NCBI GenBank assembly: GCA_963971425.1
Contig: OZ020519.1
Location: 2,248,028 to 2,312,027 of the forward strand
Direction: 5' to 3'
DNA length: 64,000 bases
Source: Bryoerythrophyllum caledonicum
Lineage: Eukaryota > Streptophyta > Bryopsida > Pottiales > Pottiaceae
A model generated the notes under the pieces. It saw only the letters and a program-made list of their open reading frames with translations. It ran no database searches and was not told the DNA's origin. The translations under genes and the position numbers were made by a program. This document shows, one piece after another, positions 14,231 through 64,000 of this stretch (position 1 is the stretch's first letter; the number at the start of each line of letters is the position of its first letter).

Positions 14231-15653
14231 TCATAGCATAAGGGGCCCGGCATCGTTGGTCATGGACGCAACCAGCGCGGCCGGGCGCGCGGAGAAGCTG
14301 GTCGCCTTGGCGTACAAGTTGCCGCCGCCTGTGGACCCCGAGTCGGTGAAGAAGGCGCCGGACTGGAAGACATCGCCGACGCTCCGCCAGTTCCACTTCT
14401 CCCACCCGTCGACGTTGCTACCATCGTCGTCGATGCGCTTCGTCACCTCCTTGAACGACCCCGCCATGTACCAGTTTCCCTCGCTGTTCACGGTCGGATT
14501 CTCGCTTCCGCCGATGGCGTACATCAGCCAGGGGCTGTAGAAGTTGTTCACGATGTGGAAGTAGCCGAACCGGCACCTGCACCGCCATCGCCAGCCGAAA
14601 AGTCATGTACAGAAGGCAGCACAGACAGATTCACATCGTTGTTTTGCAATCTCATTGAGGGTCTCATGAGAGTATCGAGCTGGTTACCTTGGGATGCGTT
14701 CGACGAGGCCTTCGCCGAAGTGGTTGAACGCAACAGTGACCTGCATTTGCTTGTCGAATTGGTCGTCCGGGTGTCCGCCGAGGAGCATGACCTTGTCGTG
14801 CTTGGTGAAGTAGTTGTTGGAGATGGTGACGGCGGTGGAGGCTTCAGTGACGTCCACCAGGCCGTCCGCGCAGTGCGAGAGGAAGTTGTGGTCGATCCAG
14901 ACGTCTCTGGAGCCGTAGATGGAGATGGCGTCGCCGTCGGCTTTTCCCCGGTCTCCGAAGTGGTCCGGGCTGCCGCGGATTACAGCCGGACCTGTCTGCT
15001 TGATGTCGTGGATGTGCAAACCGTGCACGATGACGTTCTGGACGTGCTGGATGGTGAGCGCCGCGCCGCCGGCGATGTGCACGTTCGCGCCGCGCCCGTC
15101 GATGGTCTTGAAGCTGTTGATGATGAGCTCGTTCTTGAGCTTGATGTTCATGTTGCGAGAGAAGATAATCCAGAGAGGCTCGGCTTGGAGCGCGCCGTAG
15201 CGGAGCGTGCCGGGCGCGGGATCGATCACGTCGTCGTCGCCGTCGTCTGTCACGACGTATATCGGCCCGTTCTTGCCGCCGATAGCGCCCTTGCCGAAGC
15301 CGACTGCGCAGTCCGCGAGCGCTTGCCTGTTTGAGCGCCAGTGCGGATCGCACCTCCAGCAGTCGTCGATAGGATTTCCTGTTCCGCAGCCTGAGAGCAC
15401 TCTCCGTGTGTGGTTGTCAGCAAGAACGTCGCTGCACAATGTAAAAACAGTGTTAGCCATGGCTATGGCGTCACTGTATCATTTCAAGACATGTAACGTC
15501 TTCAAGATACAACGGCAATGTGTTTTACCTATCATGATACTGGACACTTGAGACATCATGTTCACTGGAGAGAGCTCTCAAGGTCTCGTCTATCGCCCGG
15601 CACAGCGGCAGCATTGCAACCAGGACAAGCAGTTGCAGTGAGCTTGGCGCCAT
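14231..15653 (-). CDS. pectate lyase, polysaccharide lyase family 1
   Basis: Predicted exons on the minus strand are 15529-15653, 14688-15431 and 14231-14576. All junctions are GT-AG and in phase, giving 404 residues, a normal size for plant PL1. The enzyme cleaves de-esterified homogalacturonan by Ca-dependent beta-elimination in the cell wall. The N-terminus ([20 protein letters not shown]) is a signal peptide. Family motifs follow in order: [36 protein letters not shown] with [10 protein letters not shown] and HDKVMLLG (Ca and substrate site); AFNHFGEG with ERIPR at the exon 2-3 junction (residues about 285-290, catalytic arginine region); then GYFHIVNN and MYAIGG. Nothing is missing. It lies upstream of two pectin methylesterase genes on the same strand, enzymes that create its substrate. 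Confidence 0.92.
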
Positions 15654-19252: not shown

Positions 19253-19717
19253 CTAGCATCTACACCGAAACAGGAAGGTTGCATCACTCCTGAGTCTTCG
19301 TGGCGCTGAGTAGCTGGGGTTGAACTTATGAGTGGCAATCCACCAGGAGTTTCCCGCGGAGTCCTTCACGCCCGCTTCGCGATCGCCGTAGGGCTGGTCC
19401 TCGGGCCCGCGCAGCGACTCAAAGCCCTTGCTCACCGCCTTCTCGTAGCTCTTGTCCACATCCTCCACATACACGTACAGCCGCGTCGGGCAAGCCGGCA
19501 TCTCCGGGGTGCCGTCCTGCACCATCACCACCGAGTCGCCGATCTTGAGAGACGCGTGCAGGATCGTCTTCTTGTCGTCGGAGAGCATGAGGTGGAGAGA
19601 GCGCGCGTTGAGCATATCTGTGGCGAAGTCGATCACGGGCTGCGGCCAGTCGGCGATGATCCACGCGTTCACGGTGGAGTGCTCCTCCCTCTGCCAATGC
19701 GTCGCCGGAGTCGCCAT
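19253..19717 (-). CDS. VOC-superfamily (glyoxalase I / bleomycin-resistance fold) protein
   Basis: A single uninterrupted exon encodes 154 residues starting at ATG 19715-19717. The fold is suggested by the motif series NAWIIADWPQPVIDF, HASLKIGDSVVMVQD, LYVYVEDVDKSYEKA and YGDREAGVKDSAGNSWWIATH. The last string matches the C-terminal half of PhnB/YdcF-like VOC proteins common in bacteria, which form beta-alpha-beta-beta-beta dimers and often bind a metal. No signal or transit peptide is visible, so a cytosolic location is likely. The substrate cannot be inferred. The lack of introns, while neighbouring genes have several, fits a retrocopy or an old transfer but proves neither. A decayed duplicate lies 1.1 kb downstream on the same strand. 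Confidence 0.75.
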   Translation of the reverse strand: MATPATHWQREEHSTVNAWIIADWPQPVIDFATDMLNARSLHLMLSDDKKTILHASLKIGDSVVMVQDGTPEMPACPTRLYVYVEDVDKSYEKAVSKGFESLRGPEDQPYGDREAGVKDSAGNSWWIATHKFNPSYSAPRRLRSDATFLFRCRC

Positions 19718-20229
19718 TGGAGCTAGCTCTCACTGTCTCTACTCCGAGCTTTAGCGCCAACCCCATTTCGTCGTCTACTTAACAAGAGAATAGAAATCAA
19801 TCAACGCTGAAAATGATGGAATGGTACCAAATGCGCCGTGCCGATCGAGTTTTGAAGGAGCCAAAGCTTCATCGTGAAGCCATCGGCTGCCGCAATTTTC
19901 TGAATTATTTAGTGCCATGCCGCCGCTGGAACCACGCCTACAGTTCCCTTGAAGTTGGGAAATTCTGTCGGAGTCACTACAGTAGTGCGGAAGTGGCGTG
20001 AACATCATATGATGTTGATCTAAGTTTTCTTCGTTTATTCTACCTAGGCATGCAATGTGTTGAAGTCATTGGTCGTACTGGAAAGATATAATCTAAGAAA
20101 GGAGACATCGTGCGACATCTACCATCCGGCGAGGTGAAGTGAATGCCCTGACGCAGCTCTAATCTGGTCAATTCTCTAAAAGTAGTTGGGATGTTTTTCG
20201 AGGTAAGCACTTACGTAATTTCAAGGCAG

Positions 20230-32033: not shown

Positions 32034-35000
32034 TCATACAAGAGGTTGCATAGGTCTCAAGTTCTCTGGAATCCAAGCCTCTCCATCTACAAAGCTGAGG
32101 GATAGAAAAGGAGCGGCCTCCACATCTGTGAGCTCATGCGACCATGGCACTCGGCTCGCTTGATTGGACCCCGGCCCAGTACACCTGTATTGCCCATAGA
32201 ATACAGTCCTGCAACACCACTTAACATCAATTTCTACCTCTTCCACTATCCAAAACACCATAGTACTGGGGGAACAAACTAGAAGAGACTTGAAAAAAGA
32301 AACTTGATAAGGGCCATACCAGGCACTGTAATAAAACTATGGGATTTATCTTGTTTTTTGTACTCAACTTCATCTAAAGGTAGATATTGAATCATGTGAA
32401 CAACTCAAGGAAGAGAAAGGCAAGTGAGATTCACGATTTTCACCTACTTCAAAAACTTCATCTAACTTGACTTTAGGAACCACCAAGCTAGATTTTCATT
32501 GATTGAATTGAAGGATTCATCACAAACGCTCCCATTGATCTAAGAGTGAGAAAAAAGTTGTATGATATATCAAAAAGAGGGGGTAGCTTAGCAAAGGATA
32601 GGGTGACTTTGGAAAGAACTTCAATGGATACATCCATGACAAGGGAGAAGTGCGCTTACTCTTGTCGCGTGTAATTGCCCCAATCGAACCATCCCGGAGC
32701 ATAGATGACATCGTTCATCCACGTATAGGAGTACACCACGCGCGAGAACGGCCCCCATGCACGCCCCAAATACACCGACGTTGGCCCCCCGCCTCCCGTG
32801 ATCGAGCACAACTGAAACGAAAATCCAGAGGCGTCGCTCGCATTTTGCCTCTTCTGCGCAGTCACTGCTCCAGACGTCGTCGGCACCACATTCAGCTCAC
32901 ATTTCTGCACATGGCATGTCAGGAGCTCGGATTAGGTGTTTACAATCTAGGTCCTGGTGACCTAAGTAGTAGCGCTACCCAAACAGAATCTTTATTCACG
33001 CTAGTCAATAAGGCAAGCGTCACTCTCGTCTGCCCTTCTTTTTCTGTTCAAAGATTGCACAATAAACTACAAAGTTCTCAGTTTTAAAGTGGCCAACTGT
33101 GCAATATATTTCACCAATTTGAGTTTTCTTTCACTTACTCATGTCACAAATCTAATCTACCATGTGACAAATCACATGATAGAGCCTAGCATAACATTTA
33201 TATAACACAATTTTTAAAAAGAAAAAAACATTGTACTATACTAGATGTGCACTTTCCACTTTTTGTGAAAATGATATGAGTTCCAATAAAAATACGGTTG
33301 TTTTCTATTCTCTAGATATGACACCTTTACACTACATGTACAAGTTTTCTAACACTTTTTCTGACGCTTCACCACCCAAGTGACAAGAACAGCCCCATTT
33401 GTACTAGAACTGTGAAGAGAATCAGTGTCGTACATGGTAGATGGAGAGCCCGTCTCCGAAGACGAAGTCGATGCTCCCTTGGATGAAGCAGTCCTTGAAG
33501 TAATGCTTGCCGTTGTGGTCATACAGCGAGTCCTGGTTGCCAAGGATTTTGCAGTTGGAGAAGACGGCCACATCGGAAGTCACGCGAAGGGCCACTGCTT
33601 GCATGCCTACAGCTCCGGGTGGAGGCGCTGGCGCAGAATTCTGCACAGATTTATGTACATTACACGATTGTCTTAGAGCAACATGACAGTATTCTACGAT
33701 GTGTAACTGACAACAACAAAACTGTGGCTATTAATCTTCTTCAGAAAAAGTTATTTTCGTCAGATTGATGGTTTTGTGCTTTCTCACATTTCTTTTTCTT
33801 TCCTTGAATTGCGTGATAAACTTGACATGCTCTCATGGTCCTATTGATAGATGGAAGTGCCTATTGATAGATGGAAGAGCCTATTGATAGATGGAAGTGC
33901 CTATTGATAGATGGAAGTGGCATAAAATTTCAATACATTAAAAAGACTTGAACTGTACTCAGGATTTGCATCTAGAAAACGTCGCACAGAAGTGTAGATG
34001 TTACTAGAAACTACCAGTATAACAAGTACAACTTCAGAAGTGTTGGTTGCCACTTACTACGTACCTGAAAGGTGATGTTGATAGCCATGAAGAAATCCCC
34101 ACCCACACCAAAAGTGGCGCTTCCAAACGTCCGGTTGCCTGCCACGGTTTTGGTGTCGTCCCACACAATCACAGGGTCTCCAAACCCGACCATGGTGATG
34201 AAGGGCTTCTCCTTACCGATGTACAACTTTTCCCTGCATTTCGACAAGATTTACAAGCGCTCAGAATCTCAAAAGAGGCAGTAGTTCAGTGGAGCGAACA
34301 AACAGAGACTATATTCATTCGAATCTCCTTCAGAGTCCATCTTTCTTTTGTAGAAATTGAGAAACTAGGCATTCACTTTAGTAGATAATGGCATTGAAGA
34401 TGCTCTATAAAGTGATTCTTACTTAAGTTACATGGATTTGTTTTACAGCACCTGAGCTAGTGTGAACTTCAGCAGACACTACTTTCCATTAAGAGTAACA
34501 TTCTAGATGCTTTATTCTTAGGAGCAAAGAAAATGGGGCTCCTAAAATCTACCGAGTCTGACAGGGTAGGTCACGACAAGAGCCCCGTGACTTGCTACTT
34601 GTTGTGGAGACCTGCGATGAATAGTAGGCAGTACAATTTACACTTGAGTGTAGTATGCTACAAGCATCACTGATGAGATTCAATAGAATAATGCCAAGAG
34701 TGCTGGACGTGGCGATGGATTGGATCAAACAACTTGTACATAAATGGGCATATTTATCGAACTTCAGCATTGGTATCCTTCCCAATATGAGACTTTCAGG
34801 TACAAAATTCGTTCAAGATACAGTACTTTTTCGTGACAAGACACACTTACAACGTACACAAGTTTGAACAACGTGAGTCGACCTCAAGGACGAAACTCGG
34901 AACTCTTTGCGAACTCCAGAGGAGATTAGTGGTGTGGAGAAATTCCCCCTTTTTTTGCAATTCAACGAGGTTATGAGTCTTGACTGTAGAGAATGAGAAA

Positions 35001-35370
35001 CGAACCTGTAAGTGCCGGCATTGACTTGAATGGTGATGCGGTAGCGCCGCAGCGCATCATTCGGAATGGAGTCGATCGCTTCCCCGATGCTCGCGAAGTT
35101 GCCCACCCCACTCGGGTCCACCACGATGTACGCGCCCGGCGCCACCACGCTCTCCCAGTCCGAGTACTGCTTCACCCCCGGAAACATGGCCGACAGGTCC
35201 GGCTGCACAACAAACGCCGGATCGCCACCACCTTCCTCTGCCAACGCCAGCTTCGCCCGGTGCCTCTGCCCCACTCTCGCCACCCACGCGGCAAACTCAT
35301 CCGCCCCAGAACTATCAGGTCTGGCCAGTCCCACGCTCAGGAGTAGCACTGATAGGAAGAGAACAGACAT
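32034..35370 (-). CDS. pectin methylesterase (pectinesterase, CE8), gene 2
   Basis: Exons on the minus strand are 35006-35370, 34065-34233, 33434-33640, 32660-32904 and 32034-32208. All junctions are GT-AG and in phase, giving 386 residues. I start at ATG 35368-35370; the frame opens earlier only through non-ATG codons. The N-terminus ([18 protein letters not shown]) is a signal peptide. After about 70 variable residues comes the CE8 domain: [18 protein letters not shown] (Gln about 192), NQDSLYDH (Asp about 215), IDFVFG (Asp about 236) and YLGRAWG (Arg about 295, Trp about 297). Both cysteines around the first Asp are present, unlike gene 1. Intron positions match gene 1, and the internal exons each differ by three bases, so the two are paralogues. 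It has no inhibitor-like pro-domain and is probably secreted to the wall. Confidence 0.9.
33841..33920. repeat. 20-bp tandem repeat, four copies, in an intron
   Basis: CTATTGATAGATGGAAGTGC is repeated four times head to tail with only single-base differences, inside intron 2 of pectin methylesterase gene 2. Confidence 0.9.
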
Positions 35371-38264
35371 GGCTCCTGTAGTCAAATAATACTACTCAAA
35401 CTACAGTGCTTGAGGACTAGAAGCGGGGGCTGATGTGAGAGGCTAAGGTGTCGCACATTTAGTCTAGCTGAAATGTAGAAATGGGTGCACTGTCAAGAGG
35501 TGATCAATCACCTTGAAGATGGCCCACCCTGAGAAGCTGAGAGAATGGTAAGTTCGTTAAGAGAAATCTGTATCCCAGATGCTAAAACGCTGCTCGAAAA
35601 GAGTACGAGTCTGGTCTAGTGTGTCAGTTGGCTGCTGAGTACGCACTCTAGATAGACTCCAGAGACCTATCCTCAAGAGTGAACCGGGGGTTTGGCCGTG
35701 AGTTGCAAGTGCACAGCAAACCTTACTAATCAAGGACCGACTAAAGACATAAACAGCACCTAAAGTACTCACCAACACTATGAATCTGGACTAATCAAAC
35801 TCCCGGGTGGTTTGCGGGATTAGACGTGGCCATGAGAGGCTAGCAAGGTGTTGCATCTCTGCGTGTGACGACAAAAGATACACGGTGGCGGAATGGGTGC
35901 ATTGTCAACTTCAGTGAGCTGCTTCGCCGTCTCCGTCAATCAGGGTACGGAGTGCAAACTTGATGCTTGGCACTGGAGGAGGAGGAGCTGGAGCTGGAGG
36001 TGGTGAGCAGTGAGTAACATTATGAGATAAGTTGGTTGCAATCAATTGGGTGGGGTGCTCTGTTAGTCATGGTTGTGCACTGAGGTGTTGCAGCAGCAGC
36101 CCTGGAGAGTAGCTAGCTTCATGTGAGTTAGCTGTACTAGTGTTTGTCAGAGCTGCAACGGTGGGATCCGGTGAGGAAGCCAGCGACGTCAAGGTGGAGT
36201 TTTCGGGTCATGTGTGAGCATTGAAGGCTCTGTTGACGTTCAGCTGACAACGGTCACTGATGCCGCTTCTTCGTCAGCCCGAGTTCGGCGTGTTGCTGTT
36301 ATGGTTTGGGAGTGAGTGCGAATTTACTGGCCTCACAGGCGAGGTGATTAACCAAGTGTCCCTCTCGAGTACATAATAAAATAAAAAAATTCACTTTGAT
36401 TGTGATTATCTTTCAATCCGTACGGTCGAAATTCACGAAGTTTTACCACATCATCTCATGTAAGTTTAGAAGAAGATCCTTTGGTTACATTTTGAGAAGG
36501 TTCATCATGGCTCTTTTTAGTCAATGGAGTAGAGATTCCTCTAAAATGCCTTGATTCCTCTAAAATGTGGGTTCATGGATCATAGATTGACTTTCACTTT
36601 AGAAGGTATCCCTCTCATGTAATTTCTTGGCCCAATGAAGGAGAGTGTGAGCGTGTGAGCCTTATGTCTTAACCTCTACAAGATCAAGACTATCTCTTGG
36701 AGCCCATGAGACCCATATGTGGACTTTGCAGGTGTTAAATCTCAATTTGCATGACATCCATGAGGAATTAGGGTGTGAGATTTATACATTAGATTTGCGC
36801 ACATATCATATGAACGCTCTGTCAAAATCGTATCATGATTCGGAGTTTACTCATGGAAAAGCTTGGAATACAACGCAATCACATCAAATACACTAAAGTA
36901 CAAATGAATAGTACCATGCTATATACTATGTTGTAATTCATATACATGCAAAATGGTTTTGGCCTTATATTTTGATTGAAATTTGTCTTCAAGGGACTCT
37001 TCATTGTTTTGTGGTTGTTGATTTCTCTCATTGCATACAAAACTTCCGATTTAATTTGTATAATTAACACGCAATTAAGCAATTATGCACTTGGCCATTT
37101 AAAAGTGCACTTGGGTACAATGACGGCCATTGCGAACAAAAGTGGCAAAATTGAAAAAAAAAAATGTTTCTCAAAGAAAAAAAAATTGAGCTTTTGCAAC
37201 AATATTATGTACAATTATGGTTGTTAATATTGGAAGCAATTTTTTGGCATTTTCAACTAATTTTTGGTGGCCCCCCGTTAATACTAGATAAATGTGTATT
37301 TAATATAGTTTTACAATATTTCAAAGATAGATTTGAAGGATTGTAGTATACAAACAAGCGTAATCACAAAAAAACATACTTTATGCAAGGGTTGGAAGTT
37401 GATTAAAAGATATTCTACGTGGTACATAATGCATACAATGGTGAAAACTAAAATATAGATGCTTCTACAAATGGACTTAGCACCAATAGTAAAAACACCT
37501 TTACTCTATAGGATTAATGATATACCGTCTAACATCAGCCTTAGAATATACTGCTCTTACACATACACTATATATCAATTACCATACACAACTAGTATAC
37601 TCTCATAAAGGCACACTATCTACTTCATAGAATTTAGGGCTGCTTGTAAATGGTCGTCATTGATAGCTTGGGTTTGCATTGCAATATATTGTAGTATGTG
37701 AGCCTTTGCCAATTGAAGAATGCAAATCCTGCTTTCAACCTGCACTCCAAATACATTGCGTTTTCTCCACCTGCTCGCCTCAGACATGGTTCTTTCCGGT
37801 GTGTCTACCCATGAAAGCACATTGTCCCTTTGGATGTGTGGCCGTATCGAAGGAGTCTGAATCGTGCGGCTCTCCATTATCAATATTCAAAAAATAGGAA
37901 CATTATGGCTGCACATTAGTCAAAATACATGTACTAATTGTTAACCTTCAAAGCACCATTCATCTGATAAAAGATATGTTTCTAAACACATATATAGAAA
38001 ACTTTTGAAACCAAGTAAACTGAACTCTCATAATCAACTGAGCCTAGGGAAGAAAATGAACCATGTTGTCTATTACAAAAACTTTAATCCTTCAATCCGT
38101 ATTGTCAAATCTTTTGAAAGCTTCTGAGTATGTTACTAAACTCTTGAAGAAACAAGGCATATTCACAACAAAATACTTCACAATTGCTCATTCTAGTATA
38201 TTGACTACTAAAGAAAAACATAATTTTTTGACACATCTAATTATATGACTTCAATTCATACTTA
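35371..38264. other. intergenic, upstream of pectin methylesterase gene 2, then AT-rich DNA
   Basis: The first part contains the gene promoter (elements not identifiable by eye) and a GC-richer stretch at 35900-36350 without a convincing frame. A clear copy of the dispersed module (ctttcaatccgtacggtcgaaattc) is at about 36409-36440, followed by its usual AAGTTTAGAAGAAGATC continuation. Confidence 0.5.
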
Positions 38265-45327: not shown

Positions 45328-46950
45328 TTATGCCTGAATTTGCCAAGGCTAAGTTAGACGCTATCTTTAATGCTATCAACATGTTATTGGTCCGGACCGC
45401 AACCATTAAAGGAGTTATTGGTGGCCTTTAACAGCATCAATCTCCCGCCAACCTAGAGGAAGGAGTTTTGTTGCTTACATGTGATTCGACAAGATCCACC
45501 ACCACAACGGAAGGAACCTTGTGTAAGCTTGCCTGAGAAATTTCATGGCACGTGCTCCAAGTTTTGAGGGTTTGTCAATCAAATTTGATTGATAATCGCC
45601 TAACGGTCGGAGTGCTACCCAACAAAAGAATCACGCGTCGGATTTATTGGGGCGCTATTTACGCGACAAGCTTTATCATAGTTTGCTCCCTTGTTTGAGA
45701 AAGGTTCACCCATCTTGAACAACTTTGGCACTTTTTAAGAGGCCTTTACAGAAGCATTTGGAAAACATGACAAGGCTCATTGGCCAACAACAAAGATGCG
45801 GTCCCTAAGGCAAGAGACACGTTCTGCATCGGTTTATGTCTTAGGGTCGCTTCACACAATGCCCAAGGCCAGTGACCGTCCGTCAAAATGAGTGGCCAAA
45901 CTATGACGAGAGGCCAAACTTTTTTGCCAAAAAAATACATTAAATAATATAGATTGAAGGTTTGGCCGGTCGTGGTGTGAAGCCCCAAAGGCCAAGTCCA
46001 AAGTCCAAATCCCATATCATTTCGCCAAAAAAAAACCAGCCCTAATAAATCACCCAATAAAAATCATCCAAAAAAATCAACCCAAAATAATCAGCCAAAA
46101 ATTTGGCCTCTTTCATCTAACGGTCTAGATCTTGTCAGTTTTTTACTATTTTATTAAAAAAATTGACGGACTCTCGATTGTAGTTTGGGTCGACTAAAAT
46201 GGGCGACCCAAGTTTTGCTTGAGACGCCGTTGCTTTGGTGCCAAAACAACCCAAAAGTGTTGCCATGTAGGACGACGGCCTTTGGAGTTTGGGCACAAGT
46301 GTGAAGGCCCAAAGTCCGGACTTTGGCCATTCTAGCAATCTCATTGGTGGAAATCGACGACCACTCAACTTGGCCACCAAGTGTGAAGCGGCCCTTAGAC
46401 TTTAGACAACTTGCGTGCGACATCAACTGGGATGAAGGAGCATCTATGAGCCAATTCTATTGGAGCTTGAAGGATACTGTAAAGGATTTGTTGTTGTCAC
46501 TCCCTGACCCGCAAACGCTCAATGAGGCAATTAGTTAAGCGGTCAAGTACGACGACCAACTCTTCCAACGTCGCAAGGATCAGAGCTCATGGAGTCCATC
46601 AAGGGAGCAGACGATCCGACAGACGTAATCTATGTTAGCGAGCAGTACGAGTTCTCATTTGAAGGTTGCAAATATGCAAATCAACGCAATATGTATCAAA
46701 CATCTTACTCCGGAAGAGAAGAAGCGTCGGATGGAGGAAAGACTATGATTGTATAGTGGCAAAGAGGGTAACAGAGTCCCCATTTGCCCGAAGAAGTCGA
46801 ATCAACGTATTATTAAGAGTAGAGCCGCCATAGACCAGGAAAACAAAGATGCCCAGTGACAATAAGAAGCATGTGACTGGTCAATTCAATTTCACGACAA
46901 CATTTAGGTTCCTCTCTTTCCGCTCAGTCTACACCTTATTTTACAATTCC
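45328..46950 (+). pseudogene. Ty3/gypsy gag remnant, interrupted by a MITE
   Basis: The coding remnant starts MPEFAKAKLDAIFNAI and carries stops and frame changes. After the MITE at 45844-46394 the frame resumes with DFRQLACDINWDEGAS, QFYWSLKDTVKDLL and LPDPQTLNEAIS, typical of the gypsy gag capsid. Around 46720-46800 the zinc knuckle is recognisable but broken (LYSGKEGNRVPIC in place of a complete CCHC). It is not expressible as a protein. Confidence 0.7.
45844..46394. mobile_element. Tourist-like (PIF/Harbinger type) MITE inserted in gag
   Basis: The ends GGGTCGCTTCACAC and GTGTGAAGCGGCCC are inverted repeats (13 of 14). TTA stands directly outside both (45841-45843 and 46395-46397), the three-base duplication typical of PIF/Harbinger elements. 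Removing the element with one TTA rejoins the gag reading frame, which independently confirms the boundaries. It is 551 bp with no transposase. Confidence 0.8.
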
Positions 46951-46951
46951 C

Positions 46952-48535
46952 TTGTCTTTTGGTCCTCAAAAACTTAAAAGCAGTGTTTTATTAGATTTAG
47001 GAGCATCTACTTGTTTTCTAGATGAAGAATTTGTCAAGAGTCACAAATTTCCTCTAGTTCAAAAATCTCAGCCCGTCCATGTAAAAGTGATAGATGGACG
47101 ACCTTTGTCCTCAGGTAGTGTTACCCATGAAACAATGCCTTTCGAGGTGACATTTAAAGGCCATAGTAGCCAAATTATCTTCAATGTCATTAGAACCCCA
47201 TCAAGCCCTATTATTCTTGATCTCTCCTGGTTAGAAAAATACAACCCATCTGTAGACTGGGAGTTGCAAAAGATGACTTTCCCCTTCCCTTTGGAACATC
47301 TAGACAATAACCTTGCTAGGAAAACCTGTTAGCAAACGTGCTAGAAAATCACGAATGAAGAAACTTCTTTTCATTGGAGCAAGGGCGTTTGTAAGATTGT
47401 CCGAAGAAGGCACATCATGTGTCATCTATGCGGCTCCAACTAGCGAAGAGAAGACCTCAACAACCAATATTCCGGAGCAGTATAAGGATTTTAAAGATGT
47501 GTTTTTGAAGAAGAATGCCGACATACTCCCGGAGCACTGTCCATATGATTGTGCCATTGGTTTGGAAGGAGCGCAACCACCCTTTGGCCCGATCTACAAC
47601 CTATTGCAAACAGAGTCGGCGGAATTACGGAAGTAAATTGACGAGAATCCGGCCAAGAACTTCATTTGCCACTCCAAGTCATCAGCTGGAGCGTCTATTC
47701 TATTTGTGAAGAAGAAGGATGGCTCATTACAAATGTGCGTGGATTATTGAGGTCTCAACAAGGTGACAAAGAAGAATGCATATCCATTGCCCTTGATCTC
47801 AGGACTTTTGGAGCAACTCGGAAGTGCGCATGTCTTTACCAAGATTGACCTGCGTGGAGCTTATACCTCGTACGAATCAAGGAAGGAGACGAATGGTAGA
47901 CATATTTTCGTACAAGATATGGCCATTTCAAGTACAATGTAATGCCTTTCGGCCTTACGAATGCCCCAACAGTTTTTCAACACATGATGAATGACATTTT
48001 TCGGGAGCACCTTGACGACTTTTTTGTCAACTATTTAGATGATATTATGATATTTTCCAAGAATGAAGAAGATCATAAGAAGCATGTTTGTTTGGTCCTT
48101 AAAAAATTATGCAAACAAGGACTCTACGCATTGCCAGACAAGTGTTTATTTCACCAAATCAAGATTGAGTTTTTGGGATTCATTGCAAGTACAGAAGGCT
48201 TGAAGATGGACTCGAAGAAGGTAGAAGCTATAGTGTCTTTATAGAAAGTTCCAAAAGACAGTTCAAGACGTATGGTGTTTTCTTGGCTTTGCTAACTTCT
48301 ATCGAATTTTCATCAAGAATTATTCACTAGTGGCTACTCTACTCAGGCAGTTGACATGCAAAGACAAGCTTGATTGGGGCCGTCAGCAGAGAAGGCATTT
48401 CAAGATCTTAAGATGGCATTTACAACCGCGCCAATCTTGGTGCACTCGAATTTTATGAAGACATTCTATTTGGAGACTGGTGCCTCGGATTTTTTTTTGG
48501 GAGCTGTACTTTCACAAATGGGGGAGGAAAAATGA
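46952..48535 (+). pseudogene. Ty3/gypsy pol remnant: protease, reverse transcriptase, start of RNase H
   Basis: The protease domain (from 46952) has LLDLGASTCFLDEEF, where the catalytic D-S-G has become D-L-G, and later IILDLSWLEKYNP. Reverse transcriptase follows with [36 protein letters not shown] (47948), YLDDIMIFS (48032, catalytic YxDD kept) and FLGFIAS. RNase H begins near 48395 (FQDLKMAFTTAPIL) and stops after FFLGAVLSQ, where the similarity ends. In-frame stops occur near 47635, 47747, 48242 and later, with frame changes. Integrase and the 3-prime LTR are missing. Confidence 0.85.
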
Positions 48536-58334: not shown

Positions 58335-60024
58335 ATGACAGAAACTACCACCGCCTCCTCTTCCAAAGGACCAGACCGTATGCTTGTTGATCTTACTGTC
58401 CCCCCTCACAATGGTCCTGTACTAATGGAAATTGTTGAGGAAAACACATGTGAGATTGTTGCATTGCACAAGAGGACCAATGATGAGATGGAGAACACTT
58501 CTAACCTAAAGAAGGTTAGAGCATCAAAATCTTCTCGTCCACCTTATTGGCTGGGTTTTAGGGCACTTAATACGATAGCTTTGCATAGTGGTATCACCAA
58601 GGAACCTGTCCTAACAGTCTCTGAAATGATTGAAATGGGAATGTCTGATACAGAAGCACAAGAGAAGGTTGTGGCATTGCCTTCCTTCCCCTTTGTCGTC
58701 CAAGAAGAGTGGCCTTCGCGAAGGACAGATGGGAAAGAAGGTAATCACTTTAACCTAACCCAGGTACCCAGTGAGGTAGAGACCGATGAACATGGATATG
58801 CATTAGATTATCAAATAGCCATTTTCTTTGAAATAGGTGAACAAATTTACTCAAGGGATGCAATCTATGCCATGGTTAAAATGCGACTTCTTCACATGAA
58901 CATTGGTTTAGGAGACTTGTTAGGTGAACCAATTGCGATTTTATGCCACCACAAGACGGATAGATAGAGTGGCAGCATCAAACTCCACCTCAAAAACCCT
59001 GGTGTGGACGTTAAAGGGCTTCTCAAAGGTACGAGACCCTTCATCTTGAGCCTTAATGAGGGCATTCCTTGTAGAGGGAAGGTATGCAAGAGTTATGATT
59101 CCCTAGCTCTTGCAACCTTCTATCAGTTAAAATCTCTGGGGCTAACTTGGCCCAAAAACCATGGTATGTTTTGCATGAGGAAATTGTGAAGGAGGGTTTG
59201 TTAGAGGATTTGAGTATGAAATAATAGATGTTCAAAAGAAACTAGAACTAGAATTCGCTTGGTTAAAAACCCCCTCCCCCGAACAAGCTCAAAAAGTGAA
59301 AGACCAAAAGATAGCTTTTTCGAACGAGATTTTCAATCCCTATTTTGCTAGTAAAGGGAAGATGAGTGAAAATGATAAAGCCAAAAAGAACGCCCTCATC
59401 TTGATCGCTAAAAACTTAAACAAAACAAAGACTGTTTGTGCGTTAGAGCAAGGTATCAACGCATTTATGGGCAAGGAGAATGTCGTGGACATCTATTTCA
59501 AGCTCGAACATGGTCGACATGTTGGGATATGTAACATCCAATGCTTGAATGCGGCAGTATACAAAAAATTAGTAAACACCAGCGGTAAAATCCTAGGTAA
59601 ATATGTGGAATTTACCCCTCACCCGAAAAGCCTGAACGGAAGTAGCGCCCCTTCGGGTGAATGTGTCACAAAATGGGGTTTCAATGAAGTGAACACGGCG
59701 GTCGCTAATGCAGTCATTGCACTAGAGAATGCTCCGAAAAATGGATATAGCAAAGAAGACCTTCACAAGATGGTCCAAGAGGAGGTGAAGAAAGGGACCA
59801 GTAGTACCATTATGGAGGTAAGAAAGGAGATGGCATCACTAAAGACAGAGATTGTACAAGAAGCTCAAGTATATGCAGACAATGTCTTAGCTAAGACAAC
59901 AAAGACACTTCGAGGGGAGATGTCTTCACTTCGCATGCACCTCGTTCAAATAATCCAAGCACATGAAGAGGAAGCCTCAAAAGAGTCATCCATGGTTGTC
60001 AAACGACCGGACTCGTTAAACTAG
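58335..60024 (+). pseudogene. LINE-type ORF1 protein, damaged
   Basis: Translation would start at ATG 58335, directly after a CAG. The frame runs to a TAG at 58965-58967 and continues in the same frame with GSIKLHLKNPGVDVKGLLKG to about 59186. It then changes frame once or twice before the open stretch ending at 60024. The last part contains VDIYFKLEHGRHVGICNIQC and EFTPHPKSLNGSSAPSG, a folded domain, then a coiled coil (KMVQEEVKKG to MHLVQIIQAHEEEA). A central folded domain plus a coiled coil matches the plan of RNA-binding ORF1 proteins of non-LTR retrotransposons. The assignment is by architecture and its place before an endonuclease ORF2; no family match is claimed. Confidence 0.5.
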
Positions 60025-60055
60025 TTCCGACCCACAACAAGATAAAATACCTAAA

Positions 60056-60149
60056 AGTATATTTATATACTTATTTACCATCAAACAAGAAAATCCAAAA
60101 AAATAAAAATAATACCATCGTAATATATTCAATAGTATATTTATATACT
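60056..60149. repeat. pair of identical 16-bp hairpins
   Basis: AGTATATTTATATACT (7-bp stem, TT loop) occurs at 60056-60071 and again at 60134-60149. The pair lies just after the ORF1 stop, where the sequence turns G-poor. Confidence 0.8.
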
Positions 60150-60272
60150 ACCTCAAAAATTAAAAAAAATTAAAACTCACCAAAATATTTAAAAGGGAAC
60201 CTACATATTTCTTTAAAACCCCATATCCGTAGAACAACTACAAAAGAAAAAACATATCCCAACCCCAAACAT

Positions 60273-61217
60273 ATGACAATTAACAACAAAAATATGACAG
60301 ACCCATTACTATACCCTTACACCCTACACAACAAAACCAATACTAAAAAATACAAAAATAAAAAAGACATACATAAAACACCAAAAACCAAAAACAATAA
60401 CACAAAACCAAAACTCAACCACTATAAGAAAATATCAAAATCCAAATCATATCATCAACAATACACTCTCAACCCCAAACTAAAAAATACATACCACAAA
60501 CATTACCACCACCCCATAACTTACTCCCATACCCCTACCCCTAGAATCCACCACGAATTAATCAACCCCTCCACCAACCATCTTATCACCAAAACATACT
60601 ACAAAATAGAAATTAGACACAAAAAAGAAATATCTTACCGCCTACCCTATACTACCACTTTCACCCCACTGAAACACTTTGTCAACGTCCCTAAACTCAC
60701 CCACAAGAGTAATTTCGCCAAAAATACGCACTACATCCTAATCACACCTATTGATAAACATATTTCTTTCCATGAAACATCAACACCAAATAACACACCC
60801 ACCAATTTCAACCCCCGCATATACACCTACAAACCAAAAACTCAATACCACACTACACTCATTATAAGTAATACCCCAAAAAAACATACATACCCATACA
60901 CTAAACACCAACCACCAATCTTCACCACTCAAAACAACTGTATTTCTATTATCGTATACCACATAAAAATCAGCTATAACCATTCCACTATACATTACAC
61001 CTCTAACCTCCTACCAAATAGAGAAAATAAAATTCACAAATTAACCCTACCAAACGAGGAGAACATCATAACACACCAAAACTCCACAAGAGAAGTATAC
61101 CCACAAGTCCTCATTTCAAAACTATTACACCTACAAACACACATTTCACCAATAAATAAACATACTATAACACCCCCCCATCAAAACACAAAAAATAGAA
61201 ATTTTATTACATATTGA
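60273..61217 (+). CDS. long unrecognised frame in the G-poor half of the LINE-type element
   Basis: From ATG 60273, 314 codons are open to TGA 61215-61217. In DNA this rich in A a chance TAA should appear about every 25 codons, so the open frame argues for real or recent coding. The product is basic and rich in Lys, Asn, Thr, His, Tyr and Pro. No zinc knuckle, RNA-recognition or enzyme motif is seen. The more protein-like part is toward the C-terminus (LPNEENIITHQNSTREVYPQ). The stop overlaps the beginning of the next frame, which opens at 61199, a stop-restart arrangement often seen between LINE reading frames. Confidence 0.4.
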   Translation: MTINNKNMTDPLLYPYTLHNKTNTKKYKNKKDIHKTPKTKNNNTKPKLNHYKKISKSKSYHQQYTLNPKLKNTYHKHYHHPITYSHTPTPRIHHELINPSTNHLITKTYYKIEIRHKKEISYRLPYTTTFTPLKHFVNVPKLTHKSNFAKNTHYILITPIDKHISFHETSTPNNTPTNFNPRIYTYKPKTQYHTTLIISNTPKKHTYPYTKHQPPIFTTQNNCISIIVYHIKISYNHSTIHYTSNLLPNRENKIHKLTLPNEENIITHQNSTREVYPQVLISKLLHLQTHISPINKHTITPPHQNTKNRNFITY

Positions 61218-61302
61218 TAAAACCCCCCCTATCCGATTACGGAGAGACAATAAACAAAATCTTGGGCCAATCCCAAGTAATATCAAACTCCGACCGAAAT
61301 AC

Positions 61303-61494
<192 letters not shown>

Positions 61495-61564
61495 CCAACC
61501 ACCACCACCACAACCACAACCACAACCACAACCACAACCACAACAACACACGCCCCCCCATCTA

Positions 61565-64000
61565 ATGCCCATAAACATTACTCATTGCAAACTATTAATT
61601 ATACTCGGTGGAGACATAGAAACTAACCCCGGCCCAATGCCAAATGTCTTCCATAACCATCCAAAAAAACACAAAAGATCATCAAAAATATACTTCATAC
61701 CGAATACTATAAAACTCCATCCCGAATATCAACATCTAGCATCTTCCTTTGCACCACTTCTAAAAAATAATCACATACTTCACCAAACATACTCTACCCT
61801 CTACCCCAACATATCTCACTACATACACCAAAAAAACAACTACCCACCCACACATATATTATTCGCCATAATCACCACCCTACACCCTTCAATAGACGAA
61901 TGCAACAATATCACCAACCAACATCCTTCCAACACAAACCCCACACAGTGGACTAACATACTACTAAATACCCTATCCTCTCTACATAATCCCCCTGAAA
62001 GACATATAGATACACTCCACCCATACACTAAATTCCTAGAAGAAAACCAACACCTTTTTGAACACAAAACCTCTCTACACAATGACCTATACAACTTTAT
62101 TCATAGCCAAACCACACCTCCTTCCCCCGGTGAACTACAACGTCATTTTCCCTACTTCCCGCACAATCTTATCCTTGAAGCTCTTAGATGCTTTGAACCA
62201 ATTCATGCCTACACACATCCCACCCCGATACCCGCATACATTTCCCCTCCACTCTGTAACCATGACATTATAGACAATAGAAACACACATATAATTACAT
62301 GGAATGCGTCGACGTTAAACACTGCTTTACCGTGCATCCACAATCTGACCGCCCACACCAACACACCACCCGCCATAATTGCCATACAAGAAACTAAATT
62401 AACCGCTACTAAATCCACAAAATATATCCAAAAAACTTTCCCCGATTATAAACTTATATTCAATAATACTCACTCTCTCACACGATGCATCCAACAACGA
62501 AGGCCATATACACCCGCAAGAGGAGGTCTACTCATGCTCATACACCAATCATATGCCTTCCCCGGGAATATTACTAAAATCCCTACCTCGGCTAATATAT
62601 CACCATATCTTCAAATTATTGAAATTACTAACAGACCCCTCCAACCATGGCTCATTCTCCATCTATACATGCCCTCACACATAGAAGACTCTAGGCTTAC
62701 CCCGGAAATCCAAAATTCCATCACTTCACAAATCAACACACACACTAACCATACAATATTACTTTGCAGAGACTTTAACCGAGATATTGCCCTTATTGGA
62801 CGACAAAACGGAGGGCTTTTTACCCCCCCCCACTTGACATAGACTATCAATGGCAAAATTATACGGATAATCTAGAATTACATTTAATCCCAACCAATAC
62901 ACAATACTCTCGACAAGGAGGTCCTAATTACACACATACTAGCCTGATTGATGGATTTTACATCAAATCACCTAACCATACCCAATATACATCCATCACC
63001 AATACCACAACCAACTTAAATTCGGACCATTTCCCAGTCCAACTAAACATACCACACAACACCCTTAAAAATAGACCTCCTCCAATCATCAACTCCAATG
63101 ACATTAAAATACTTAACCCCATCCCAAGAGAAAACCTTGATAACTTCAACACAATGTTCTTTGAAAAAAACTCACTTCAAATAGACTCCCTAACAGATAT
63201 CCTTTCTAACCACCAACACCTCACACATATACAATGGCAAGAAGCTTGCACAACTCTTGACAAACTTATTAAAGAAATTTCTACTACATTAGAAAAGACT
63301 TGTAAAGCATCCCCGATTCCACAACTCACTCCTAGAACCTCGAAACAAGGGGGGTATCTCCCAAGAAAACTAGCCAAAAAATGGAAACAACATCTTGTCA
63401 CATACCACACTATTCGAAAAATAATATATATTGTTAAAAGTAACCAAAATTGGCGAACCCATCCCATACTCTCCGAACTACAAAACATTTGTCACCCCCA
63501 AATACCTCAAGTACCACCAATCAACACCCCTCACGAAGATTGGCTAAAAGACATTGCAACCATTGCAAAAGTCGCCAACAAAGAAGCTCGGAAAATTACT
63601 TCAAAGTATGCTAGAGAATGTGTCAAAAAAGCCATTTCGAAATATCGACAACTATACGAAACTAGCCCAAAAAAGATTAATAGAAAAGTCTTTCAAAATA
63701 ACACAAACCTGCCACTAGACTGTATTCTAGATCAAAACAACAACATTCTAACTAGCCCAGATGACATTGCAAACGAAATACATATTCAACAATCCATAAA
63801 CAATAGACCAACCACCCCCCCATGTCACTTTCAACCACAACATACACCAACATGTACATGCGGAGTTAGACAATACCTGTGGCATGATCTAGACGGATTT
63901 ACTATTGATAAAAGGGGCGAACCAACAACACCTCTCCACACATATTATAACAGAGACACATACAACATGTGCCTAAAAAATTTGGGGACTAACAAAGCCC
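61565..64000 (+). CDS. LINE-type ORF2: 2A-like leader and AP-endonuclease domain (continues past the window)
   Basis: The frame opens at 61199 with no ATG until 61565, which I take as the start. Residues 10-24 carry a 2A-like motif. Endonuclease motifs follow: TWNASTL (62297, Asn), IAIQETKL (62384, Glu), RGGLLMLI, ILHLYMPS, RDFNRD (about 62768; the usual GDFN has Arg for Gly) and, after a frame change, LNSDHFPV (63016, catalytic Asp-His). The break lies in a run of nine C at 62823-62831; one C fewer keeps the frame open. From there about 390 codons continue without a stop to the window end, into the linker that precedes reverse transcriptase (PDDIANEIHIQQSINN). The polymerase itself lies outside. 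The single break could be a real mutation or a homopolymer sequencing error. Confidence 0.8.
61610..61636 (+). other. 2A-like (StopGo) ribosome-skipping motif GDIETNPGP
   Basis: The codons GGA-GAC-ATA-GAA-ACT-AAC-CCC-GGC-CCA match the 2A consensus D-(V/I)-E-x-N-P-G-P exactly. They are preceded by the hydrophobic, helix-prone stretch KLLIILG, as 2A sequences require. In 2A the ribosome fails to form the Gly-Pro bond and continues. Here that would release a 23-residue leader (from ATG 61565), or a longer polyAsn product if translation starts upstream, and begin ORF2 protein with Pro. N-terminal 2A sequences are known in some animal and trypanosome non-LTR elements; activity here is inferred, not shown. 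Confidence 0.75.

Follow-up and report, generated by a model that had tools for sequence, protein, structure and literature searches.

An abundant group of LINEs in the genome of Bryoerythrophyllum caledonicum probably uses a 2A (StopGo) peptide, placed where a translated, disposable linker meets the enzyme encoded by ORF2, a reading to which a probability of about 0.7 is given. The motif is present and selected as a peptide, stands at an internal place, is preceded by an open and unconstrained linker and lies where the constraint on the protein begins, and these points are directly supported by the copies compared.

Layout of the copy in the window

In the window, which is the whole stretch of 64,000 nucleotides analysed, positions 61589-61636 translate in the endonuclease frame as KLLIILGGDIETNPGP, an exact match to the 2A consensus. 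The hydrophobic lead-in and the core (61610-61636) are thus as an earlier note on this DNA had described them. The translation of 61565-61636 on the forward strand, MPINITHCKLLIILGGDIETNPGP, shares its frame with an open stretch at 61214-62842 that includes the start of an APE-type endonuclease. The residues MPNVFHNHPK follow it directly, the endonuclease lying further downstream. The features of this copy (L009) are as follows.

up to 58967, in another frame (+): upstream part of ORF1, which is frame-broken in the window copy
59179..60024 (+): 3' part of ORF1, with its stop codon at 60022-60024; open to the same stop in copy L010
60055..60072 (+): hairpin 1, AAGTATATTTATATACTT, at +30 from the ORF1 stop
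60133..60150 (+): hairpin 2, TAGTATATTTATATACTA, at +108 from the ORF1 stop
60273..61302 (+): G-poor linker; 60273 is the first AUG past the ORF1 stop
61303..61548 (+): (CAA)n, then repeats with CCA, which open copies read as polyQ in the 2A frame
61589..61609 (+): hydrophobic 2A lead-in KLLIILG, codon position 2 held across loci
61610..61636 (+): 2A core GDIETNPGP, exact consensus match
between the G codon 61631-61633 and the P codon 61634-61636 (+): predicted skip site
61637..61639 (+): conserved ATG immediately behind the 2A proline, which may serve as a second ORF2 start
61637..62842 (+): ORF2 body as far as the frame break (C run, ~62830), with the MPN..HP..HKK..YFIP.TIKL region and the first part of the endonuclease
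62294..63038 (+): APE-type endonuclease domain, position transferred from L010; frame-broken in the window copy
63154..64000 (+): continuation of ORF2 in another frame toward the reverse transcriptase (RT); RT, PCIF1-like domain and RNase H fall past the window end

The window copy is damaged, its upstream frame being broken at about 61217 and its endonuclease frame in the C run at about 62830, and the element extends beyond the end of the window. The AUG at 60273 is likely the start of ORF2 in the group A copies; in the window copy, after the break at about 61217, it is now out of the 2A frame, and the (CAA)n/CCA repeats are mostly read there as Asn. Pfam detected no family in the window's own piece of ORF2, the families described below being found on L010, and no match for ORF1 at the curated level. 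Rfam at the gathering level gave 0 families in the window.

The window also contains a pectate lyase fragment at 14687-15478 (-), a glyoxalase-type fragment at 19256-19729 (-) and the retroviral-type aspartyl protease of another retroelement at 46877-47329 (+). A pectinesterase considered at 34813-35391 has no Pfam support and was discarded.

Anatomy and classification of the element

In copy L010, the ORF1 stop lies at 1276, and from 1429 onward another frame stays open for at least 2857 codons. This frame encodes, in order, a Thr/Asn/Lys-rich linker, a polyQ tract, the 2A peptide, the endonuclease, the RT and RNase H. Pfam assigned L010 the families Exo_endo_phos_2 (E=7.9e-6) and Exo_endo_phos (E=5.9e-5), which fall slightly short of their curated cut-offs, and RVT_1 above its cut-off (E=1.3e-12). 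The element combines an APE endonuclease and an RT in ORF2 with multiple dispersed copies and is classed as an APE-type non-LTR retrotransposon. The label of a plant-type LINE given in the earlier note gains no clear support from this comparison, as the best PDB matches of the RT are to R2 (5.3e-31 to 9.1e-27), followed by L1 (4.5e-19) and another R2 (4.7e-18). By eye, a C-terminal KPD...EF...NKY-like stretch resembles a restriction-type endonuclease; a PDB sequence search for this second endonuclease returned only insignificant, unrelated matches.

The RT, a PCIF1-like domain and RNase H were seen in L010, L023 and L024. The PCIF1_WW family, that of the cap m6Am methyltransferase, scores above its curated cut-off of 31.1 bits in L023 (38.8) and L024 (39.1) and below it in the scanned piece of L010 (21.3 bits). 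The sites precede RNase H, within L023:7000-9999 (aa 291-418) and L024:7150-9999 (aa 236-363). The catalytic motif of PCIF1 is NPPF, and by eye the corresponding site seems to read HPHN in the LINE copies, which makes a PCIF1-like activity doubtful. No paper pairing PCIF1 with 'non-LTR retrotransposon' was found in the literature.

In BLAST comparisons, the similarity of copies L020-L028 to the window begins only around the (CAA)n tract, and their ORF2 side is about 90-92% alike as DNA to that of L009-L019. The ORF1 proteins of L010 and L024 are 60% identical, against about 92% for their ORF2 as DNA, so that the two halves point to different histories; the repeat seems to be the point at which L020-L028 and L009-L019 exchanged their 5' modules. 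In two pairs of loci on contig C1 (L037 and L051, L048 and L053), the upstream open stretch carries, by eye, earlier decayed 2A-side segments, which looks like the outcome of a tandem duplication of the 5' part.

Occurrence of the 2A peptide and selection on it

The genome searched comprises 437 Mb in 894 contigs. It has 31 matches to the NAC (NAM) family, many being paired exon pieces, and 10 to dynein heavy chains, while 14 control genomes yield neither. NAC genes are a mark of plants, a small set suits a non-seed plant, and flowering plants have lost dynein heavy chains, so that these counts agree with a non-seed land plant as host. A degenerate 2A pattern matches the genome at 1621 places (825+796), whereas the reversed control gives 0+0, by which a chance match is ruled out. 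An ATG follows the motif immediately at 1590 of the 1621 places, and a Met does so in 48 of 50 aligned loci.

Other copies of the element were compared in two ways. A DNA search yielded 2093 candidates, among which 40 copies (90-100% alike) were scored, and 20 of these, taken at 10 kb each, formed a set of close copies. NPGP is kept in 17 of the 20, the others reading NPCP (L014) or NLGP (L015 and L028). A set independent of the motif was anchored on the downstream peptide YFIPxTIK, found at 1774 places against 4 in the control; 100 of the 1774, all on contig C1, were analysed. The exact motif stands 74-84 bases upstream of the anchor in 75 of these loci, and at exactly 81 bases in 68. Each of the remaining 25 has a recognisable decayed motif with one or two residue changes, five of them in a frame that differs from that of the downstream peptide. 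Thus, no anchored locus was found that keeps the endonuclease side while the motif is missing outright.

Across the eight fixed codons in the 100 loci, non-modal cells amount to 36/1600 at codon positions 1 and 2 and to 196/700 at third positions. Since the first two positions are held while the third varies, the peptide GDIExNPGP is under purifying selection with x left free, and this is the 2A rule. Indeed, x is T, Q, K, A, I or R, whereas D, I/V, E, N, P, G and P are held in most loci. The core conforms to (D/G/C/N)(V/I)ExNPGP, and the context upstream is Leu/Ile-rich at positions -6 to -2 and kept as peptide. The held and free positions of the plant LINE motif agree with the 2A consensus as given in PMC4981915 and PMC12846837. 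The proposal that a selectively maintained 2A is sited in a plant LINE for the endonuclease-RT protein to begin with Pro accordingly stands as regards both placement and selection.

Where the constrained protein begins

The variation at codon positions 1 and 2 relative to position 3 was followed across 50 loci, L032 being left out as degenerate. The ratio is 0.98 in codons -20 to -8 of the adjoining linker, 0.75 in the lead-in, 0.15 in the motif and 0.43 just downstream of it, values which are descriptive as the rows were chosen in mixed fashion (19 by exact motif, 25 for lacking it and 6 from the DNA search). In the lead-in, non-modal cells number 30/350 at codon position 2 but 146 and 118 at positions 1 and 3, respectively, and the holding of position 2 is the pattern of Leu/Ile exchange. 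By this measure, the protein visible to selection starts at the 2A peptide or its lead-in, and a boundary at the lead-in is what is expected if 2A cuts a disposable leader off the enzyme.

The linker upstream of the 2A peptide

In the 390 nt upstream of the motif, the 20 diverse loci have 43 stops in the 2A frame versus 183 and 146 in the other frames, and 19 close copies (L014, with no motif match, being left out) have 17 versus 92 and 35, in comparisons that count related loci as independent. Several close copies do carry linker stops in the 2A frame. From the first AUG to the (CAA)n tract, 10 group A copies in which the start was found could be counted (it was not found in L019). Six of them (L010, L011, L014, L016, L017 and L018) have 0 stops in the AUG frame and 13-27 in each other frame; the remaining four have 4 (L009, the window copy), 6 (L012), 19 (L013) and 6 (L015). 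Among the six, 2A is now in another frame than the linker AUG in L014 and L017, and L018 meets a stop further on.

The linker nevertheless drifts. In group A, its substitutions fall at 96/87/71 by codon position and its unique changes at 35/37/38. None of the 248 single-change linker codons of group A has become a stop. The 2A frame gained 0 new stops versus 3.3 expected, a small number; the other frames gained 7 and 5 versus 4.4 and 5.6 expected. The C-terminal substitutions of group A are nearly flat as well (618/588/770), possibly from decayed or non-homologous ends, so that the linker stands out less clearly against them here. A linker that is poor in stops yet free to drift points to a sequence that is read by ribosomes and whose encoded content is irrelevant. 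Thus, the linker appears to be translated while its coding content is without importance.

The coding strand has 0-10% G in many 100-base bins of the window at 60025-61560 and upstream of the motif in L029-L058, L032 and L036 being exceptions. Low G in the linker also reduces AUG, UGA, UAG and RNA structure.

Start of ORF2 and hairpins after ORF1

The earlier note had placed the motif 16-24 codons from the first ATG. The distance is true of the window copy, where, however, the upstream frame is disrupted; of the 17 close copies that bear NPGP, 8 retain this ATG, which stands 21 codons upstream, and 9 lack it. Among the 20 diverse loci, none has an in-frame ATG open to the motif within 40 codons, 6 have one at 44-111 codons upstream and 14 have none within the 133-142 codons examined. 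Upstream ATGs are distributed as 17/19/15 by frame, without enrichment of the 2A frame. An N-terminal leader of 23 residues starting at the ATG at 61565, also proposed at the outset, must be given up, as conservation of that ATG is lacking and the translated frame appears to extend well upstream of the motif. In this element, the 2A most likely acts from an internal place rather than in an N-terminal leader.

The first AUG past ORF1 was surveyed in 21 loci with a located ORF1 stop, many of which are decayed copies; L015, L023 and L045 were left out as the stop context was not found. In five loci (L010, L011, L016, L020 and L030), this AUG shares the 2A frame and leads to 2A without a stop, while in four (L018, L019, L026 and L043) it is in frame and meets a stop. 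It is out of frame in nine (L009, L012, L013, L014, L017, L021, L027, L028 and L029), the position of the ORF1 stop being doubtful in L027. In the last three (L022, L024 and L025), no AUG of any frame lies between the ORF1 stop and the ATG behind 2A, and the 2A would remain unread there by ordinary initiation. The 3' parts of these three copies are 99.4-99.6% alike, and this near-identity suggests that the form without an upstream AUG has multiplied recently.

Hairpins are abundant after the ORF1 stop, with 53 in the 21 loci versus 6.6 in shuffles. Most of the families compared, though not all, have hairpins of the type AGUAUA...UAUACU in two zones, about +30 to +37 and +107 to +126. Hairpin 1 stands at +30 in 10/10 group A copies with the ORF1 stop found (the stop of L015 was not located), and similar hairpins occur at +33 to +37 in L020, L022, L024, L025, L026, L029 and L043. 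The same 10 group A copies carry hairpin 2 at +107/108, with a counterpart at +125/126 in L020, L021, L022, L024, L025, L026 and L029. Both sides of the stem have changed in L028 (AGTATC...GATACT) and in the L043 hairpin at +33 (TAGTGTA...TACACTA). The search detected no hairpin in L027 and only an unrelated one in L030. These hairpins may aid re-initiation after ORF1.

Proposed mechanism and alternatives

After the end of ORF1, ribosomes would re-initiate within the linker, and some families probably use the first AUG past the ORF1 stop for this. They would then read a G-poor, repeat-rich stretch that needs only to be free from stops. At GDIExNPG|P, the nascent peptide is predicted to make the ribosome skip the Gly-Pro bond, upon which the linker product would be released and the protein carrying endonuclease, RT and RNase H would begin with Pro-Met-Pro-Asn. 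The presumed benefit is an enzyme with a clean N-terminus. A more specific version of this scheme is tentative: the linker, led by the hairpins, would be a disposable runway that ferries ribosomes from ORF1 to ORF2 and is cut off by 2A, while the ATG behind the motif would provide a second start with the same N-terminus.

Since it stands behind 1590 of the 1621 motifs, that ATG may serve as an additional point of initiation from which almost the same enzyme is made. It can also be taken as the true start of ORF2, the 2A being rarely read or mattering only as a back-up for ribosomes that started upstream. Its frequency behind the motif, the Met of 48 of the 50 aligned loci and the three copies without an earlier AUG speak for this latter account. 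The account is nonetheless unlikely, as the motif and lead-in are kept as peptide and stops in the 2A frame are depleted upstream, neither of which is expected of an untranslated leader. Somewhat less probable again is that the endonuclease protein has here a segment with a structural or binding role, 2A-like in appearance but without any skipping. The conservation does run on into MPN..HP..HKK..YFIP, but the positions that are held and those that vary match the 2A consensus, there is a short hydrophobic lead-in, and the constraint starts there and not before.

The idea that an N-terminal leader joined to 2A serves for signalling or targeting, which the earlier note had raised, has a hydrophobic lead-in in its favour, as well as a precedent in the NLR genes of S. 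purpuratus, whose signal sequences are linked to 2A (PMC4981915). It is very improbable here, since the hydrophobic run is internal and only about six residues long, the ATG 21 codons upstream is missing from 9 of 17 NPGP-bearing close copies, none of the 20 diverse loci has an open in-frame ATG within 40 codons, and the precedent concerns sea-urchin immune genes, not LINEs. A programmed -1 frameshift from ORF1 into ORF2 is not favoured either, though it may apply in L022, L024 and L025. The offset between the ORF1 and 2A frames is the same in L010, L011, L020, L022, L024, L025, L029 and L030, as a frameshift would have it, but it differs in L016, the 2A frame of L010 is closed from the ORF1 stop to 1429, and no canonical slippery heptamer was seen by eye in the overlap of L024. 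A fused ORF1-2A-ORF2 polyprotein was rejected as a general rule: L037 is open for 733 codons across the motif, yet this stretch shows, by eye, repeated 2A-side segments and no ORF1.

Comparison with known systems and significance

2A-like sequences are known in APE-type non-LTR elements, namely L1Tc of trypanosomes (Heras 2006) and elements of other multicellular organisms (Odon 2013), as cited in PMC4981915 and PMC12846837. Those elements share with the plant LINE the core D(V/I)ExNPGP and the status of non-LTR elements with an APE-type endonuclease. The present case differs in its plant host, its stop-poor drifting linker, the conserved ATG after the motif and the 1621 places in one genome. 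Viral 2A/StopGo sequences have the same consensus and presumably the same ribosomal mechanism, whereas the plant case is a retrotransposon (PMC12846837). The sea-urchin NLR genes likewise place 2A upstream of the main protein; there, according to PMC4981915, it belongs to the N-terminal signal sequence of immune genes, whereas in the plant LINE it is internal and the preceding stretch is unconserved.

Among LINEs, the Dualen/RandI elements, as described in PMC4640811, PMC8226300 and PMC3747384, compare with the plant LINE in the APE-type endonuclease, the R2-like RT matches, RNase H and, as far as inspection by eye goes, a putative restriction-type C-terminal stretch, and the plant LINE is a possible member of this clade. 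In the plant LINE table of PMC3747384, the families of flowering plants are L1 and RTE, and that of green algae is RandI.

According to PMC4981915, 2A is active in plant cells, and a 2026 survey of StopGo sequences (PMC12846837) concurs, while finding nothing to indicate that plant viruses use it naturally. Among the matches listed, no title or abstract describes 2A in a retrotransposon of plants, and any priority is provisional. As far as the literature found goes, natural use of 2A in plants would be new. If the linker does act as a disposable runway, this would be the first natural plant 2A and a new route of expression for the second gene of a bicistronic LINE. 2A peptides are already used for multi-gene expression in plants, and the 1621 exact 2A places in one plant genome suggest that natural plant variants exist; these places also form a large natural alignment of the 2A positions held by selection. 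The finding thereby makes it testable how LINEs express ORF2 from a bicistronic RNA.
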